The notes under the pieces: model-generated
The model's input: only the letters and a program-made list of their open reading frames with translations
Told to the model about the DNA's origin: nothing
Database searches by the model: none
Made by a program: the position numbers and the translations under genes
Part shown: positions 3,906-14,292 of the stretch, one piece after another
Layout: every line of letters starts with the position of its first letter
How positions within the stretch are numbered: position 1 is the stretch's first letter
Origin: Conoideocrella luteorostrata
Lineage: Eukaryota; Ascomycota; Sordariomycetes; Hypocreales; Clavicipitaceae
Length of the DNA: 64,000 bases
Reading direction: 5' to 3'
Assembly: GCA_032433595.1 (NCBI GenBank)
Contig: JASWJB010000084.1
Coordinates: forward strand, 62,001-126,000

Positions 3906-4967
3906 TTATAGAACGAGATCATCCCAATCGCATTGAAGGAGGTTGGGATAGTCATCCGGGGGTTCAGGTCCGTAGGCATTTTTTAGATATTCTCCTACTT
4001 TCCTTGTCAACTCCTCAGTCGGCTGCACATTTGCATTATCACCGACATCGACAAAGTGCATCTTCAAAATGACTTGAATTGTCTTCTCGAATATGTCAGA
4101 TTGCTTGTCGCTCAGATTTCCTGACTCGTGTCTTTGCTGAACGTCGAGATTCTTGTCGAGGAGCGCTTGTTTCATGGCAGAAAAATCGGCCGTCATAGTA
4201 CTTTCGAGGAAATAGTTTTTCGGCTCGGGTACTTTGACGTGAGCCAACTCATTTCGTTTACATGATAGCTCGATGTAATGAATGAAAGTCGGCCTGTCTA
4301 TGAGCTTCGACTTGTCGCAAAGGACCTTGATGCGGTCCAGAATAGGAGTTGAGGGGGCGGCATTGTGTCTTCGCCCGTTATTCCTCCAGAGTCTAACTTT
4401 GTCTGTCTCAACTCTGATGTCCCGCAGAACATAAGCTGTGTGCTTTCCATGAACAGCATTCCATCCAAGGTGTTTTTTTGCCTCTGAATTTGCTTCTTCT
4501 TCGGCCTTCTTTTTGTCCTTGTTCTTTTTGTTGATGAAAAGCTTTTGTAATCTTTTTTTCTCGTCTTTAATGAAAGCTTTTTCGAGAAAGGCGATTTGTT
4601 TGATTAATAGGATAACCCAATCGGCAATTTCCAAAGCGAATTCGCTGTCACTTGTTCGCTTAGCCTCGACCTGTTCGTTGGCCGTAGCTAGAGGGGGATG
4701 AGAAGTAGTCTCGGTGCTTTTGGCGTCTCGGAGATTGTTTTTCGCGTCGATCGCCTTTTGCAACGCTTCCCACCCTGCCAAGAGCAGCTCCTCGTCATCA
4801 TCTTCCTCGCTTTTCTGCATAGATAGATTAGCTTTCTTCTAGAAAATAGTACTAATCTTATCAGTGTCTGGACTCATTGATCCAGAAGCTCGGAGCTTAT
4901 TGATCTCATCGATGATGTTTTGAGCTGGGCTCTCGCGCTTTCGCTTTTGGCCTGTAATAGAAGCCAT
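3906..4967 (-). CDS. Unrecognised charged helical protein, interrupted by one in-frame TAG
   Basis: I do not recognise the family. A 42-codon segment from the ATG at 4967 (lysine/arginine-rich KRKRES near residue 10, a possible nuclear signal) runs into TAG at 4841-4839. The same frame then stays open to 3906, giving a further 304 codons from the ATG at 4820. The downstream part starts very acidic (EEDDDEE), then has a hydrophobic stretch (EIADWVILLIKQIAFLEKAF) and a strongly basic coiled-coil-like run. Two readings fit. One is a genuine in-frame stop, read through or edited. The other is a 51-nt intron at 4802-4852 with donor GTACTA, branch GCTAAT and an AAG acceptor, which removes the TAG and keeps frame. 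AAG acceptors are used elsewhere in this window. Translation could also begin at 4820. Confidence 0.55.
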
Positions 4968-5486
4968 TTTTCGTATATTGAATTGTCGTTTATTTCGTTT
5001 ATTGTCGCAATCCTGGGCAGTATGATGCTGTGCTGTGATGCGTGCTGATACTGGCGTTGGAAGAATAAAAAACAAAAATTGGGCAGATTGCAAAAAAATT
5101 GCAAAGTAGCCCACAGCAGGACTAGATAGACAGGGAGGAGCAAGCTGTAGCCTAGGGCACTGTGCTTTCTTGACTACGAGGTTGATGAGGAAAGAGCAAC
5201 GGGCACGGCTGATGGGGCGAGTGACTCTTCATTTCCGCCAGAGAATGCCTCCAGCTTTGGTTTTCTCCCCAAGCCAACGCATCGAGCCTGTTCGTGAGCA
5301 TTATTTGCATACAACCCAATCTGTCCTTATCATTTAAAAATTAGTACATGCTAACATTTTAGCTAGTTTCTGATAGTTATCCAATTGTAAGTTGTCCAAC
5401 GATCCCAAGGGCGGTGCCTTATCAGTGCTATTTGTCTGGACAAGTAGAATGATTTACTGACAAACTCTAATCACAACACACTATCC
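4968..5486. other. Intergenic spacer between divergent genes
   Basis: The spacer separates the minus-strand gene starting at 4967 from the micro-exon gene transcribed rightward. Overlapping short minus-strand frames run through 4968-5143 upstream of the ATG and look like leader sequence. I see no other gene. Confidence 0.4.
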
Positions 5487-5659
5487 GTAAGTATTCCAGA
5501 CGTTTGGTTCCGTTCACGAAGTGCTAGGTGTCTTGCAGTATTGTTGACTTATGTTAAGCACCGTCGAACTACGTAAGAAGCCATCCATATCACCTTCAGC
5601 TTTTAATATACTGATCATGGGCTTACTGACATCATGATCTCGTTTGACAGGACCAAAAA
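5487..5659 (+). other. Probable spliced 5' leader of the micro-exon gene
   Basis: Two likely leader introns precede the ATG at 5660. One spans 5487-5538 (GTAAGT...TTGCAG). The other spans 5573-5650 (GTAAGA, branch TTACTGAC, GACAG). The 34-base exon between them has an ATG at 5550; after splicing it would open a 12-codon upstream reading frame ending across the next exon junction, which could reduce translation of the main frame. This is inferred from splice signals only. Confidence 0.4.
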
Positions 5660-7119
5660 ATGGCTGTAAGTGATCTCTTCAGCCTATGAAGTATCAGATC
5701 ATCTGTTTCCATGGATAGCATACTACAATTCTCGTGAATATTCAAAACTGACGAAGTATTAGAAGAACGATAGAACCACCGAGCGCGGTGGCAGGGTAAG
5801 TTTAGCTTCTCGAGATCCGACTGTATATACTAGCGCTCACATAAGCATAGAGAAACTTTTCAGGCGTACGGCTCATCTATGTGGTTATAGTGCTATTGAA
5901 CAGAAATGGTTAACATATGTAGACCTCGAATGCCAGCTCTAGCTCGGCCGTTGTTGCTGCCCCGCCTCCTCCCTCGCCTCCCGATGTAAGAAAAGATTTT
6001 CTGGAATGAGTTACTGTCGGCAGACTATACTGATTTCTTGGATGAGGGACAGCAACAAGCAGCCCCCGTGGCTGAGAAAGTGAGCAGCTTAGTTAACACT
6101 GCCCCCTCTTAGTTCTATATCCTAACTTAGTCGTCTTAGAAGAAGAGAGCAGCTGTGAGTCAATAGTAACATGGAATGCATAATGCGTTGACGAAGTCTG
6201 ACATTTCGAAATTTAGCCAGGTACCAGAGCTGTAAGCATTGCATCAGGTCTAGTTTTCCCGTCTTTAGCTAATTATATTGGTTTCTTAGGCTGCTGTTGA
6301 GAATGCTGCGGTACGAAAAAGAACCCTTTTCAATGATCTGACTATTCTAACAAACTATAGTATTGGCGGGAGAAAGTCGTCGTGAGTTCCGAAACCATTC
6401 ATATTGAGATCTTGGTCATACTGACAAAGTAAAACCAAAGATTGCAATTAAAGAATTGCATGTAAGTGCGAATGATACTCTTCAGAGACAATTTTCTTAC
6501 TGACGAAATTATCAGGAATTCGAAGCGAAGAGAAATGTATTTACTTTGCAATGCTCGAGTGACTGGAACATTTTCTCACTAACGTTTACAGGAGCTCGAA
6601 GCACGCAGAGACGTATATTTTCCGTCCCACTTTGTATTGGGTATTCTCATTGACATATTGTGTAGCATGCGATCCAGAGAGCTGCCGTAAGGACCCATTA
6701 GTCTCGCTCCACATTACTTATTTCAAACTAATCGCTATGATGCAGCGCTGGGAGCAGCAGGTTGCGGTGAGGTTTTGTATGGGCTGGGACGGAAAGATTT
6801 TTACTAACAGTCCCGTCAATAGGAAATGGCCGAAGAGCCGGTGAGAACTTCATATTCTACAAATGAATTTTAGAATACTAATCTTCATGTCCCTGCGTAG
6901 GATTTTGAAGTTGTGGCAACCGTGAGAATTGATTCCTCTACGCCTTTAAAGTATATGGTCTAATCCATTGAGGGTTTAGTCTCTTATCGACCAGGCGAAG
7001 GCAAATTTTGCCACCGAGCCCGCCGAGGACGCCGAGGCTGAGCCTGCAGTAAGTTTTCCCCACATAAAACATTATTTCTTCCGAAGCTGACACTTGGTGT
7101 AATATTGTTGTAGGAGTAG
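5660..7119 (+). CDS. Micro-exon gene encoding a heptad-repeat (coiled-coil) protein
   Basis: I recognise no family; the structure is the evidence. Coding exons are 5660-5665, 5763-5795, 5851-5865, 5923-5985, 6053-6079, 6140-6154, 6217-6231, 6290-6310, 6361-6381, 6441-6461, 6516-6536, 6592-6612, 6666-6686, 6746-6766, 6823-6840, 6901-6921, 6995-7048 (or from 6980) and 7114-7119. Every internal exon is a multiple of three, splits in phase 0 and has no stop. The intervening pieces are 45-100 nt with GT donors, branches such as TACTGAC, CACTAAC and TCTGAC, and AG acceptors. The product is about 139 residues. It has a basic N-terminus, a Ser/Ala/Pro-rich segment (AAPPPPSPPD), then seven-residue exon products YWREKVV, IAIKELH, EFEAKRN, ELEARRD, HAIQRAA and RWEQQVA, and an acidic Ala/Glu/Pro tail. 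There is no signal peptide or membrane segment. The weakest points are the 15-nt exon at 5851 and the AAG acceptor at 6440. Confidence 0.75.
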
Positions 7120-7410
7120 GAGCAGGAGTAGGAGCAGGAGTAGTAAAAGGTATGTTTTCTCCAATTTTTGCATTGGTCCAATGGTCCAACTGATGTAATT
7201 AATAGGAGAGAAGTATGAAGAATTTTTTTTGGGGCTGCTCCGAGTAAGTTGTTTGCATATATTGTTACTAGCTTCTTTTGCTAATTTATTATACTATTTA
7301 GAGCATACAGCAATAACATGGGCCTAAGGCCGTTTTGACCCTTCTCAAAGTCTGTCTCGAGTGACATTAGGTGAGTGACCGTGACATGCTAGAATTGACA
7401 ACTCACAGAT
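7120..7410 (+). other. Spliced 3' part of the micro-exon gene, alternative C-terminus
   Basis: Past the TAG at 7117 the exon continues to 7149 as a 12-bp tandem (GGAGTAGGAGCA). Further introns follow at 7150-7205 and 7244-7301, and perhaps 7372-7409. If exon 7114-7149 is skipped, exon 6995-7048 joins 7206-7243 and 7302-7338 in frame, adding a tail with KNFFWGCS and NNMGLRPF before TGA at 7336-7338. So two different C-termini are available. Confidence 0.5.
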
Positions 7411-7459
7411 GAGGCCATGGTGGCCTCAAGAACATTTGCGCACTACCCCTCATCGTCTA

Positions 7460-7620
7460 TGTGACAGATTGAATCTAGTGAGCTCAAGGAGTGCTAGGTT
7501 GCGCCGCCGGGGTTGGCGCCCGATCCCGTCTGACCAAAAGTATACGCATTAAACAAGCTGCTCGCCAGCTTAGTCAATTAGCACTATATAGCTAGGTCAA
7601 AGATCTAGACCATAACAATC
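7460..7620 (+). repeat. Diverged direct repeat, copy 1 (LTR- or SINE-like)
   Basis: About 160 bp are shared with 9186-9344 in the same orientation. Common blocks include GTGAGCTCAAG, AGTGCTAGG, GCCCGATCCC, GACCAAAAG and GTCAATTAGCAC. Both copies start TGTGA and end near ATAACA, which fits TG...CA long terminal repeat ends. No reverse transcriptase is visible between them, so a short non-autonomous or solo-LTR remnant, or two SINE-like insertions, are equally possible. Confidence 0.55.
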
Positions 7621-10286: not shown

Positions 10287-11109
10287 CTACTCAGCATCTA
10301 CATCATTGTCGTCGTAGTGCCGGTAGACGCCCCAGTCTTGATACTTCTGTCTTCTGTCGCTGGCAAGATACGCGGCGATATTTGGCCGTTTTTGGACATC
10401 CTCCCACAGCTTGAATACCTTGTCGTATTTGCCGGTTCCTCGGGCCTGCTTCATTGCCTTGGGGAAAGCGTATTGGGTACCGTCAAGACACTTTAACGGT
10501 TGGTCAGTCCGGTCATAAAATCTCAAGAAAGAGGTCGGCATCCAAGTCGAGACAACATACCTGGAACAAGACCAAGTCGGCGTAGGTGAATGTGTCTCCC
10601 AACAGCCATGGGCCCGACCCGCGTTCCTCGTTTTCCAACACCCTCTGCCAGTACGCAAGAATGGTAGGTAGGCGGCTTTGGACCCAGTATTTGCTGCGCT
10701 TTTGACTTTCCTCCCTCTGGTCTTCCCAGGGCAGCATGAGGGCGATAGGGTGGTGTGAATCATGAACTTCGTTGCTCAAAACGTCGAGCGCGGTGAGGGC
10801 AAGAGCGTTTACCCGGTACGAGTCGTTCTCTCGCGATCCGGCAAGTCCGAGCTTCGGACCAAGGTAAAGGAGAATGTTCGGAGTCTGAGAAATGACGAGG
10901 TCGCCATGCCTGAAGAGAGGCGGGGCGAAGTAAGGCGGGTTCCCAAGTCCGCCGCCAGCGAGCCAGGTGGTGACGGTCTTCCGGGCTTCGTCAAAAGACA
11001 GATGTTGAGTGTCTTTGTACTGGACACCAGCTTCCTCCAAGATCAAGCGGACATGTTCACCGCGGCCGGGAACCCCCGTGTAATATATGAGTTCGTAGGG
11101 GGTAGCCAT
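10287..11109 (-). CDS. Glutathione S-transferase
   Basis: This predicted cytosolic GST conjugates glutathione to electrophiles. Exon 1 is 11109-10561 and exon 2 is 10490-10287; the 70-nt intron (GTATGT...TTAAAG) splits in phase 0, giving 250 residues. The N-terminal thioredoxin-like domain opens with TPYELIYYTGVPGRGEHVR, with a Tyr where sigma-type enzymes carry the catalytic residue, and has an SQTPNILLYLG stretch matching the glutathione-contacting S-x-x-I-x-x-Y-L element. The helical C-terminal domain has GDTFTYADLVLFQ, the conserved N-capping box region. The ATG at 11109 was chosen because an upstream in-frame Met adds residues that do not look like GST. Exon 2 ends in an acidic tail. A detoxification role is general to the family; no substrate can be inferred. 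Confidence 0.88.
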
Positions 11110-12672
11110 GCTGATGCGTGAAGGTTGAGGCAGATTATCATGCAGACGGCTAGCCGTGTCCAAGTGCGGGGTTGCTTTGTGGTCTGTATTACACCATGGG
11201 GGCTGTGTTATGATTCTGCCAACATTCAATTGCAGCCAACAAGGGTGAGACTAGGCCCTGGCGTTTTCATCCATGGATTATGCAGCTGGGTCTCCTTGCG
11301 GAAATCTGTGCTGGAGGATTTTACTAATGCACGTCGTATGCATCGCATATCAGGTAAGCTGCTCTTTACTGTTGCTGGCATTGGTATGATCACCCGTGCC
11401 GCACACGGGATTTAAGTTTTCACCCAGACGTTCATGGTCAGCAAATGGCACGATTGGGTGTGATTGCCCAATGCTTCCCGCACGGGTCAAGGCTTCGTCG
11501 TAGCACACCCTCGACATGGGAATAAAGACTGGCACAAAGCCGCCGGGTTCGTGAGGAATATCTTCCGGTAGTTTTGTCAGTTACCTTGTTATTACAATAA
11601 AGTCAAAAAACGACCACAAACGTCGCGCCAACATCGATGGACAACATCATAACAGAAAATGACCTCAACCTCCTAGTCACGTATCCTCCCCTCGGCGGCG
11701 AATTGTGTAAGCTCTAGAGGAGCCAGTCATGTCTAGACCCATAGATGAATGCCGAGACACCAACGTGGTCTACCAGGACAAAGCTACACCCGGTGATGAT
11801 ATGTCACGGCCGCATAAAATACATCATTCACACTATTAACGTGGAGCTTCATATTCTGCGGAATTTTGTGGCAGACTAGGGCTAGTACAAAAGTGGTATG
11901 GTAGCATTACTTCACGTTGCAGTAGCTTGAATTATTTGAGTAGCTTGCAGTAGCTTGAGTAGCGTTTTCGGGTGAGGCGTACGGAGTATGGAGTACTCCG
12001 TATATTCCGGTGTGAACTATGCAGAATGCTCCGTAGACGAGTAATGAAATGTCATATTTTCTGCATGAGGACGTAAAAATATGATAAGCCGCGCTACCCA
12101 CACACCTAGAGTTTTGTTCCATTGCTTACACCAGAGCATTGGCATTGTCTAGTCATGACCTATCGCAGATTTTCGCATGGTGCGTGACCAACGAGCTTCG
12201 CCCTGCCACCACGCTAATTGCATCAAGCCGCCCAATTGGTCAAATCCTTCTCTCCCAGATTCATGGTGAATGGCGCTATTTTTTTTATCTGCCGAAATTG
12301 CAACCAGCGGGTTGCAGAGTAGACCGTCTCTCTACCGACGTTGAGAGTGACCTTCACCAGCCGTTAGCTGTGAGTCCAACAATTTAGCTTTTTGTAGATT
12401 TTCCGCTCGTAGGAACCTCTATTACAGTGTTAATTATCAGACAGAACGACCAATTTTTATGCGTTGCTGTTAACGGGCTACGACACCGTGTTGATAACGA
12501 AAGTTATCCTAACGGCAATCAGAGGGATTACAACGTTACAATTTAATCGCAGGATGACGTATATGTGGTCCCGCAAGCGATACAAATCACGCTACTAGAC
12601 GCTGTAGGGTTTCCCATCATCTTTGCTTTCCAAGACTCCTACATCATCCGTGGGCATTCCCGACCGCAAAGT
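11110..12672. other. Intergenic with short repeats
   Basis: This holds a tandem of AGTAGCTTG units at about 11931-11968 and, next to it, a palindrome around ACGGAGTATGGAGTACTCCG at 11981-12000. No gene is supported. Sequence from 12565 is in frame with the downstream oxygenase but is more likely 5' leader. Confidence 0.4.
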
Positions 12673-14292
12673 ATGGAAATCAATGTAGACGTATTGGTAA
12701 TTGGCGCCGGCTTTGCAGGTTGCCTGTCTCTACATCATCTAAGGCGCCAAGGCTTGTCAGTCAAGATTATGGAGGCTGGCAGTGATCTCGGCGGGGTTTG
12801 GCATTCCAACAAGTATCCGGGCGCTCGGGTGGATTCCATGACGCCGTACTACCAAGTCACGAGTCCCGACATATTCAACGATTGGTCATTCAATGAATTA
12901 TACCCAACTGCTCCAGATCTTAAAAAATATTTCGATTACCTTGACGAGAAATGGAACCTTCGAAAAGACATTTTCTTCAACCAAAAAGTTATAAGGGTTG
13001 AGTACTGCCATGCAAGATGGCGTCTTTTGACGGATATGGGGCTTCGACCTACTGCAAGATTCGTCATCTTTGTTACGGGGACAACAAATAAGGCGTATAT
13101 TCCCGACTTCCCTAAAATACAATCTTTCAATGGTCAAGTCATTCATCCAGCAGCCTGGCCAGAAAAATTAAGTTTAGAAGGGAAGAAAGTTGGAATTATT
13201 GGCCAAGGGGCTTCGGGGATTCAAATTTTCGAGCAACTTGCTAAACGTGGCCATGATATTACAGTATTTATTCGAACGCCACCAGTTGCACTGCCAATGA
13301 AAAATCGCCCAATATCAGAAACAGAAAATCAGAAAAACAAGTTCGGGGAATGCTTCAAAAGGGCAAAATATGGCGATGAGGCAGGCTTTCCTTGGATCCC
13401 ATATCCAAAACGCTTTCGGTCCGAGTCATCTACCCAGCAACAGGAATTATTTCAGCGACTGTGGAAACGCGGTGGCCTAGGCATTGTTTCAAACAACTAT
13501 ATGGACTTGAACGTCGATAAGGAGGCCAACCGAGCCTTGTACGATTTTTGGTCAACAAGAGTGCGCGAGCGCGTCAAAGATCCCAGAAAGAAGGATATCC
13601 TCGCCCCATTAAAACCGGTACAGCCAATTGGGACAAAAAGGCCGTGTCTGGAACAGAACTATTACGAGTTAATAGACCAGGAAAATGTTACTCTTGTTGA
13701 TCTCAAGAAAACCCCAGTTGAAGAGTTTACGTCTAACGGCATACTCACCGCTGGAGACACGCTACATCAACTGGACGTTGTGATCGCCGCAACTGGTTAT
13801 GACTCTGTCACAGGTAGTCTATACGATATAGACATATTTGACAAGCATGAAGTCACTCTTAAAGAGAATTGGAGAGGTGGAATTCGAACCTACCTTGGCA
13901 TGATGGTTCCTGGTATGCCAAACGCATTTATTCTGTATGGACCTCAAGCGCCAACATCACTGACAAGTGGTCCTCCGTTTATTGAGTTACAAGTCGAGTG
14001 GATAGTTAAGTTGCTCAGGAAGATGGAAAAGGATAGTATTAATTCTGTGGATTCAACGTGGGAAGCCGCTGAGGCGTACAATAAGAAGCTTAGACATGTA
14101 TTTAATCGGCTCTTTCACAGCAAAGCGCCATCTTGGTGGGTCGGAGCTAATATTCCTACTAAGAGACGAGAGCCTTTACTCTGGTTTGACAGCACCGGAG
14201 CCTGGTCACGAGAGTGTGCAGAGGCGTTGAATAACTGGTCGCAGTTCAACACGATACGGGAGGGAAAGAGAACAACAAAGTGGAAAATCTAA
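12673..14292 (+). CDS. Baeyer-Villiger-type FAD monooxygenase
   Basis: This predicted flavoprotein monooxygenase inserts oxygen next to a ketone, giving an ester or lactone, with FAD and NADPH. The intronless protein has 539 residues from the ATG at 12673. The reading frame is open from 12565, but starting at MEINVDVLVIGAGFAG puts the FAD fold at the N-terminus as usual. GAGFAG is the FAD Rossmann motif, FNGQVIHPAAWP exactly matches the BVMO fingerprint FxGxxxHxxxWP, GQGASG is the NADPH Rossmann motif, and IAATGYD is the C-terminal ATG motif. It converges on the terpene cyclase gene, so a role in oxidising the terpene product is inferred. The coding sequence is rather AT-rich for a fungal enzyme. 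Confidence 0.9.
   Translation: MEINVDVLVIGAGFAGCLSLHHLRRQGLSVKIMEAGSDLGGVWHSNKYPGARVDSMTPYYQVTSPDIFNDWSFNELYPTAPDLKKYFDYLDEKWNLRKDIFFNQKVIRVEYCHARWRLLTDMGLRPTARFVIFVTGTTNKAYIPDFPKIQSFNGQVIHPAAWPEKLSLEGKKVGIIGQGASGIQIFEQLAKRGHDITVFIRTPPVALPMKNRPISETENQKNKFGECFKRAKYGDEAGFPWIPYPKRFRSESSTQQQELFQRLWKRGGLGIVSNNYMDLNVDKEANRALYDFWSTRVRERVKDPRKKDILAPLKPVQPIGTKRPCLEQNYYELIDQENVTLVDLKKTPVEEFTSNGILTAGDTLHQLDVVIAATGYDSVTGSLYDIDIFDKHEVTLKENWRGGIRTYLGMMVPGMPNAFILYGPQAPTSLTSGPPFIELQVEWIVKLLRKMEKDSINSVDSTWEAAEAYNKKLRHVFNRLFHSKAPSWWVGANIPTKRREPLLWFDSTGAWSRECAEALNNWSQFNTIREGKRTTKWKI

Follow-up and report, generated by a model that had tools for sequence, protein, structure and literature searches.

We examined a 64,000-nucleotide (nt) window of the genome of the ascomycete Conoideocrella luteorostrata (contig JASWJB010000084.1 of assembly GCA_032433595.1, positions 62,001 to 126,000), numbered here from its first letter. 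On the plus strand of this window lies a predicted gene cut almost entirely into very small exons, called the micro-exon gene below. A preliminary description of the locus had listed sixteen blocks of 15 to 63 nt between 5763 and 7048, each bounded by AG and GT, that stay open from an ATG at 5660 without a change of frame. When rebuilt base by base, all sixteen were in place, in that order and at those lengths, with AG before and GT after each. Joined with ATGGCT (5660 to 5665) and GAGTAG (7114 to 7119), they give 139 stop-free codons closed by TAG (7117 to 7119), and the 17 introns of this full model are without exception in phase 0. The sixteen internal exons (15 to 63 nt) contribute 408 of the 420 coding nucleotides, stop included; 14 measure 36 nt or less, the smallest 15 nt, and every one is a multiple of three in length. 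The majority of the coding sequence thus lies in very small, symmetric internal exons, the pattern expected of a micro-exon gene. We consider it probable that this is a single-copy, constitutively spliced micro-exon gene of a filamentous ascomycete, whichever of its doubtful exons are real.

To score the model, splice-site, branch-point, and codon models were trained on 45 introns and 39 long open reading frames, with the plus-strand donors of the micro-exon locus left out and the training introns themselves picked for good consensus. Both training and searching drew on the 64-kb window plus twenty stretches of 10 kb from the same genome, altogether 264 kb of the 46.4 Mb. Exon chains were searched for across the 264 kb on both strands, with phase and frame free and introns of up to 110 nt, in four settings including penalties 14 and 17, and locally in region 5200 to 7599, with introns of up to 130 nt, in six settings. 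Each of the sixteen blocks was also compared with alternatives inside its own donor-to-acceptor span: all 16 were the best in-frame exon there, and 0 to 8 of 500 shuffles of the span interior equaled them.

The start codon falls in coding exon 0 (5660 to 5665; ATGGCT, encoding MA; donor, 8.7 bits). Exon 1 (33 nt, 5763 to 5795, KNDRTTERGGR; acceptor, 2.6 bits) has an uncertain end, and 2 of 500 shuffles were as good. Exon 2 (15 nt, 5851 to 5865, RNFSG; donor, 4.9 bits) is the weakest, with a poor branch point and 8 of 500 shuffles as good, and may be skipped or may not be an exon. Exons 3 (63 nt, 5923 to 5985, TSNASSSSAVVAAPPPPSPPD), 4 (27 nt, 6053 to 6079, QQAAPVAEK), 5 (15 nt, 6140 to 6154, KKRAA; acceptor, 2.7 bits), and 6 (15 nt, 6217 to 6231, PGTRA) were recovered by both chain searches, and no shuffle of 500 was as good except for exon 5 (3 of 500).

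A run of seven consecutive 21-nt exons follows, each encoding seven helix-prone residues: exons 7 (6290 to 6310, AAVENAA), 8 (6361 to 6381, YWREKVV), 9 (6441 to 6461, IAIKELH; acceptor AAAG, 0.2 bits), 10 (6516 to 6536, EFEAKRN; donor GTATTT, 0.9 bits; acceptor, 3.1 bits), 11 (6592 to 6612, ELEARRD; donor GTATAT, 0.8 bits), 12 (6666 to 6686, HAIQRAA), and 13 (6746 to 6766, RWEQQVA). All but exon 10 were in both chain searches. Shuffles as good numbered 0 of 500 for exons 7, 8, 12, and 13, 1 for exon 9, and 4 each for exons 10 and 11, whose weak donors make them candidates for skipping. Exons 14 (18 nt, 6823 to 6840, EMAEEP), 15 (21 nt, 6901 to 6921, DFEVVAT), and 16 (54 nt, 6995 to 7048, AKANFATEPAEDAEAEPA) were likewise in both searches with 0 of 500 shuffles as good, and the last coding exon (7114 to 7119; GAGTAG, encoding E and the stop) has an acceptor of 5.4 bits with CTGAC. 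The exons have a guanine-plus-cytosine (GC) content of 57%, versus 38% in the introns.

The 17 introns measure, in order, 97, 55, 57, 67, 60, 62, 58, 50, 59, 54, 55, 53, 59, 56, 60, 73, and 65 nt. A YTRAY motif lies 13 to 35 nt upstream of the acceptor in 16 of the 17, the exception being the intron that precedes exon 2, and 10 of the 16 internal exons exceed the training 10th percentile at both donor and acceptor. Retained introns would disrupt the frame throughout: 10 of 16 introns examined contain an in-frame stop, the other 6 are not multiples of three, and the 17th, of 65 nt, shifts the frame. Even the four introns that are multiples of three (57, 60, 54, and 60 nt) each contain an in-frame stop.

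The 264-kb chain search ranked the micro-exon locus first, at 116.7 versus 18.8 for the runner-up with penalty 14 and 63.6 versus 12.4 with penalty 17; among the six best that each setting listed, the remaining chains comprised one to three exons. Locally, the real region scored 80.9, and 300 dinucleotide shuffles of 5200 to 7599 peaked at 11.1 and 3 exons. Exons 3 to 9 (5923-5985 to 6441-6461) and 11 to 16 (6592-6612 to 6995-7048), thirteen in all, were present in all ten settings, and in phase 0 even with phase left free. Together with the architecture, these searches support the earlier proposal of a fungal micro-exon gene with symmetric exons, and its claim that the series exceeds chance has held up.

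The joined exons also read as coding sequence. For exons 3 to 16, the codon score was 33.6 bits in frame and -0.2 and -66.0 in the other forward frames. None of 5000 nucleotide shuffles reached it (50 were stop-free), nor did any of 800 offsets when the exon map was slid 1 to 400 nt both ways; the exon-intron GC difference was equaled at 4 of these 800 offsets. Scores were positive in all 17 exons scored. Phase 0 throughout is not the habit of this genome, because the 45 training introns split 15/17/13 among phases 0, 1, and 2. If introns were independent, an all-phase-0 set would be most unlikely; under growth by duplication of a phase-0 unit, their phases would not be independent.

In the predicted 139-residue product, the N-terminal third is rich in Ser, Ala, and Pro, the middle (about 60 residues) is charged and helix prone, and the tail is acidic, judging from composition and helix propensity. 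By eye, the product is free of cysteine, and its N terminus (MAKNDRTTERGGRRNFSG) has no hydrophobic stretch or signal-peptide-like start, in agreement with the preliminary description, the 5' end of the gene being provisional. In the best of seven heptad registers, hydrophobic residues, Ala included, occupy 12 of the 14 a/d positions, a count reached in 160 of 20000 shuffles; from the sequence, a coiled coil is plausible. Pfam gave no family above the cut-off for the product, its sole match being a sub-threshold E3_UBR4_N (8.8 bits), and no NACHT or ankyrin match. A PDB search of the product, Rfam at gathering scores within the window, and ARAGORN likewise returned no match.

Within the 46.4-Mb assembly, a protein search returned, besides two pieces of the locus itself, a single weak match (C66:117271-117471; 30% identity, E 0.5, 152-amino-acid open frame). 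That match was set aside; its DNA, read by eye, has no comparable layout. A DNA search of the same 46.4 Mb, in which only the best candidates were scored, returned the locus itself and no paralog or intron copies, which argues against recent duplication of the gene or recent spreading of its introns.

Based on these results, the locus is most likely an apparently single-copy, orphan, protein-coding gene with about 18 coding exons and about 17 introns of 50 to 97 nt. Splice sites in filamentous ascomycetes are thought to pair chiefly across short introns (PMC4324775, PMC6616335), and each short intron of the micro-exon gene would be recognized across itself, by intron definition, so that tiny exons would pose no obstacle and no exon definition would be needed. 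The main product would be the full exon chain, probably a soluble, intracellular protein. Retention of any single intron would bring in a stop or a frameshift; full-length protein would require removal of all introns, and expression would therefore be gated by splicing. Because seven consecutive exons encode seven residues apiece, loss or gain of one would disturb neither the reading frame nor the register of the helix. If isoforms vary, the likeliest form would be low-level, in-frame skipping of exons 2, 10, and 11, the weakest of the set.

Several observations weigh against this reading, beginning with the fact that the gene is known here from genomic DNA alone. A homolog search with the product, covering proteins of 0.55 to 1.75 times its length with exact 5-residue words in common, gave 215 word-sharing candidates, none at E of ≤10. 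Because gene finders easily miss tiny-exon genes, a gene missing from protein databases may well be present in relatives, and the genomic comparisons made here covered this one fungal assembly. Two of the three reverse-strand frames of joined exons 3 to 16 score above zero (9.4, 6.9, and -21.1). The heptad signal is modest, with hydrophobic-moment P values of 0.02 at period 7 (ten periods tried), 0.18 at 3.5, and 0.25 at 3.6. Weak sites include the donors of exons 10, 11, and 2 (0.9, 0.8, and 4.9 bits), below the training 10th percentile of 5.5, and the acceptors of exons 1, 5, 9, and 10 (2.6, 2.7, 0.2, and 3.1 bits), below that of 4.0. Finally, the chain-search optima differ from the chain first described: exons 1 and 2 are redrawn, exons 2 and 10 dropped, and end blocks added.

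These differences are confined to a few exons and to the ends. With introns of up to 110 nt, the 264-kb search replaced exons 1 and 2 with a block at 5763-5822. With free phase and penalty 14, it instead placed an out-of-phase block at 5774-5822, preceded by three blocks at 5242-5572, and added an 11-nt end block at 7132-7142, for 20 blocks in total. The local search omitted exons 2 and 10 and added end blocks at 7120-7127 and 7206-7212 (17 blocks in total at penalty 17); at penalty 15, it added two blocks at 5367-5520. The end blocks added at low penalties are unsupported. Exon 2 was thus in no optimum; exon 10 was kept by the 264-kb search and omitted by the local one. Exon 1 kept its described form in the local search and was longer or out of phase in the 264-kb search, and exon 11 was retained in every setting despite its poor donor.

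A real micro-exon gene in which some exons are false or have the wrong ends (2, 10, perhaps 1 or 11), leaving a true chain of 13 to 15 of the sixteen, is the alternative that survives best, and it overlaps with the preferred reading. The redrawing or omission of exons 1, 2, and 10 by both searches and the weak donor, acceptor, and branch scores speak for this alternative. Against it, exons 1, 2, 10, and 11 are still the best in their own spans (matched by 2, 8, 4, and 4 of 500 shuffles), and dropping exon 2 or exon 10 requires an intron of 127 or 130 nt, compared with a median of 67 nt and a 10th-to-90th percentile range of 52 to 96 nt in the training introns, which were sought up to 109 nt. 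We regard this alternative as possible, with the odds against it.

It is unlikely that the gene instead works combinatorially, as the preliminary description proposed, with one helical protein made in many lengths through the skipping of various sets of symmetric exons. Its appeal is that all 16 internal exons are phase 0 and multiples of three, so any subset would stay in frame; weak donors or a weak branch point mark exons 2, 10, and 11, and the local-search optimum leaves out two of these in frame. Splicing of 3-bp micro-exons in NLR genes of Tuber and skipping of 15- and 33-nt exons in rtnA, both treated below, offer precedents. Yet ten internal exons have donors and acceptors that both exceed the training 10th percentiles, and symmetry would also be expected from phase-0 unit duplication or a protein repeat alone. 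In Trichoderma longibrachiatum, intron retention makes up 93.4% of alternative events, a figure that the authors caution may be an overestimate and in which they see intron definition (PMC4324775). Because retention dominates there, a sign of intron definition, large-scale exon skipping would be unusual, and on general grounds we judge combinatorial isoforms less likely than constitutive splicing. A specific form of this idea is likewise unlikely: each 21-nt exon would be one coiled-coil heptad, and skipped sets of cassettes would shorten a rod by whole heptads with frame and register kept, giving tunable lengths with intron retention as an off switch.

We think it improbable that the locus is a decaying gene or a spliced noncoding transcript with a chance coding look; the lack of homolog, Pfam, PDB, and Rfam matches would fit, but the frame is intact across 139 codons and 17 introns, and the codon score of 33.6 bits was matched by none of the 5000 shuffles and 800 offsets. 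That splice-like words and open blocks were merely assembled by a pattern-seeking reader is hardly credible: AG and GT are common and the blocks were picked by eye, but an unsupervised search recovered the same 13 blocks in every setting, and the other chains listed had at most three exons (264 kb of 46.4 Mb).

Old tandem duplication is a possible origin of the regular exons. The 21-nt exons may descend from a unit of about 76 nt, exon plus intron, whose copies have since strongly diverged. Neighboring exon-plus-intron units from exon 7 to exon 15 are more alike than reordered sets, with 134 of 20000 order permutations as good. This permutation was preferred over a shuffle null for the units (0 of 200 for two means and 15 of 200 for the maximum) because shuffling destroys splice-motif positions. 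The introns of the gene are on average slightly more like one another than are 28 training introns (mean likeness, 1.47 versus -0.21), but their GC fraction is also lower (0.38 versus 0.44). Other comparisons count against duplication: no neighbor effect appears for exons alone (3963 of 20000) or introns alone (8516 of 20000), intron-plus-exon units give a borderline result (998 of 20000), and the 13 of 21 identical bases between exons 10 and 11 were equaled by 130 of 5000 codon shuffles. A recent unit duplication was considered and is not clear from the sequence comparisons of units and exons.

In schistosome micro-exon genes (MEGs), the coding sequence consists mostly of tiny symmetric exons, an N-terminal signal peptide is present, and protein variants arise via alternative splicing. 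These genes were reportedly described by DeMarco et al. in 2010, a study cited in PMC11121469. They share with the micro-exon gene the predominance of tiny symmetric exons and a short product without known domains. The differences are that this gene is fungal, has no signal-peptide-like start (by eye), has introns of 50 to 97 nt, was found in one genome copy, and carries 21-nt heptad-like cassettes. Aphid bicycle genes have on average ∼17 exons, very small and nearly all of one phase, and divergence hides their homologs (PMC9168663); the many very small exons in one common phase and the obscured homologs resemble our case. However, bicycle exons begin at the second codon position (phase 2), encode CYC motifs, and belong to a large family, whereas here the exons are phase 0, the product has no cysteine and thus no such motif, and no family was found.

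Among fungi, the nearest precedent found is the NACHT-ankyrin (nank) family of Tuber melanosporum, for which Iotti et al. (2012) is said to be the primary report. This family is reported to undergo alternative splicing of codon-sized (3-bp) micro-exons (PMC4986451, PMC10197012), and because of these reports, the preliminary statement that no fungal equivalent has been described is too strong. What stands of it is that our literature search, among the matches listed, gave no fungal gene made almost wholly of 15- to 63-nt micro-exons with a run of 21-nt cassettes. Like the micro-exon gene, the Tuber genes belong to a filamentous ascomycete and have several in-frame micro-exons. They differ in that theirs are 3-bp exons in NLR genes, whereas those here measure 15 to 63 nt, make up nearly the whole coding sequence, and are read from DNA; the predicted product has neither a NACHT nor an ankyrin domain, and the model contains no 3-bp exon.

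Other fungal genes also contain small exons. The metallothionein gene TmMT of Tremella mesenterica, a fungal gene likewise cut into small exons, has 10 exons of 63 to 105 bp and introns of 48 to 204 bp, confirmed by cDNA, and encodes a repeated-unit protein (PMC4755600); its exons exceed the 21-nt exons here three- to fivefold in length, and its product is Cys-rich and metal binding. A 2024 paper describes functional micro-exons as previously undescribed in filamentous fungi and reports a 20-nt exon in Xlr2 of Trichoderma that annotation had overlooked (PMC11121469); its statement on novelty speaks in favor of the preliminary description. A 1-nt exon is reported in CYP621A of Fusarium (PMC12940212), and in rtnA of Aspergillus niger and Neurospora crassa, 15-nt and 33-nt exons are skipped in frame via a twin intron, exon II being a micro-exon (PMC6616335). 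Xlr2, CYP621A, and rtnA show that very small exons can be spliced in filamentous ascomycetes; unlike the micro-exon gene, each has a lone micro-exon within an otherwise ordinary gene.

If expressed as modeled, the locus would be an ascomycete coding gene composed almost entirely of micro-exons and would test the limits of intron definition, with introns only 15 to 21 nt apart. It would also be suited to the question of what makes exons symmetric: selection for skipping, phase-0 unit duplication, or protein repeats. Gene finders probably miss such genes, which may therefore be under-counted in fungi. They may be discoverable only via gene structure, as the aphid bicycle genes were (PMC9168663).

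At the 5' end of the gene, whose position is provisional, a candidate leader intron, or two introns flanking a leader exon, spans 5487 to 5650 on the plus strand; the donor at 5487 (TCCGTAAGTA) scores 7.6 bits, and CTGAC lies 25 nt upstream of a 5.1-bit acceptor before 5651. Further introns may lie in the 5' leader and the 3' part. At the other end, a 12-nt repeat, GAGTAGGAGCAG, in which the last coding exon begins, was recognized by eye at 7114 to 7143 (plus strand), within the stretch 7114 to 7149, and forms a ladder of at least five possible AG acceptors at 6-nt spacing, scored before 7114, 7120, 7126, 7132, and 7138. An in-frame stop follows each within at most 4 codons, so the protein end would vary by at most 2 residues under those choices; the repeat is perhaps an alternative-acceptor ladder with a fixed C terminus. 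Beyond the stop codon, strong donors lie at 7150, 7244, and 7371, with acceptors before 7206, 7302, and 7409. Candidate 3' untranslated region introns at 7150-7205 and 7244-7301 (plus strand) have donors of 8.3 and 8.4 bits and acceptors of 5.5 and 6.6 bits with CTGAT and CTAAT and would flank a 38-nt exon. This arrangement suggests that the intron-rich pattern continues 3' of the stop codon, from 7150 to 7408.

Upstream of the micro-exon gene, the minus strand carries a 304-codon open frame (3909 to 4820) with no Pfam match at E 0.1. Open frames elsewhere in the window match a 2EXR protein (1155 to 2183) and a glutathione S-transferase (10290 to 11229). The interval from 12565 to 59810 looks like a secondary-metabolite region; we claim no functional link between these surroundings and the micro-exon gene. 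A Baeyer-Villiger-type monooxygenase at 12565 to 14289 is 57 to 59% identical to Metarhizium and Pochonia proteins. An RPB2 fragment matched one entry at 90%, another at 97% over 57% of the query, and a partial Fusarium fujikuroi entry at 82%; we place the DNA in a filamentous ascomycete, probably one of the Sordariomycetes. Eight further frames have at least 200 codons, and seven of them match Pfam, including an MPAB-type oxygenase, a P450, a second flavin monooxygenase, two transporters, and a polyketide synthase fragment (KR/ketosynthase).

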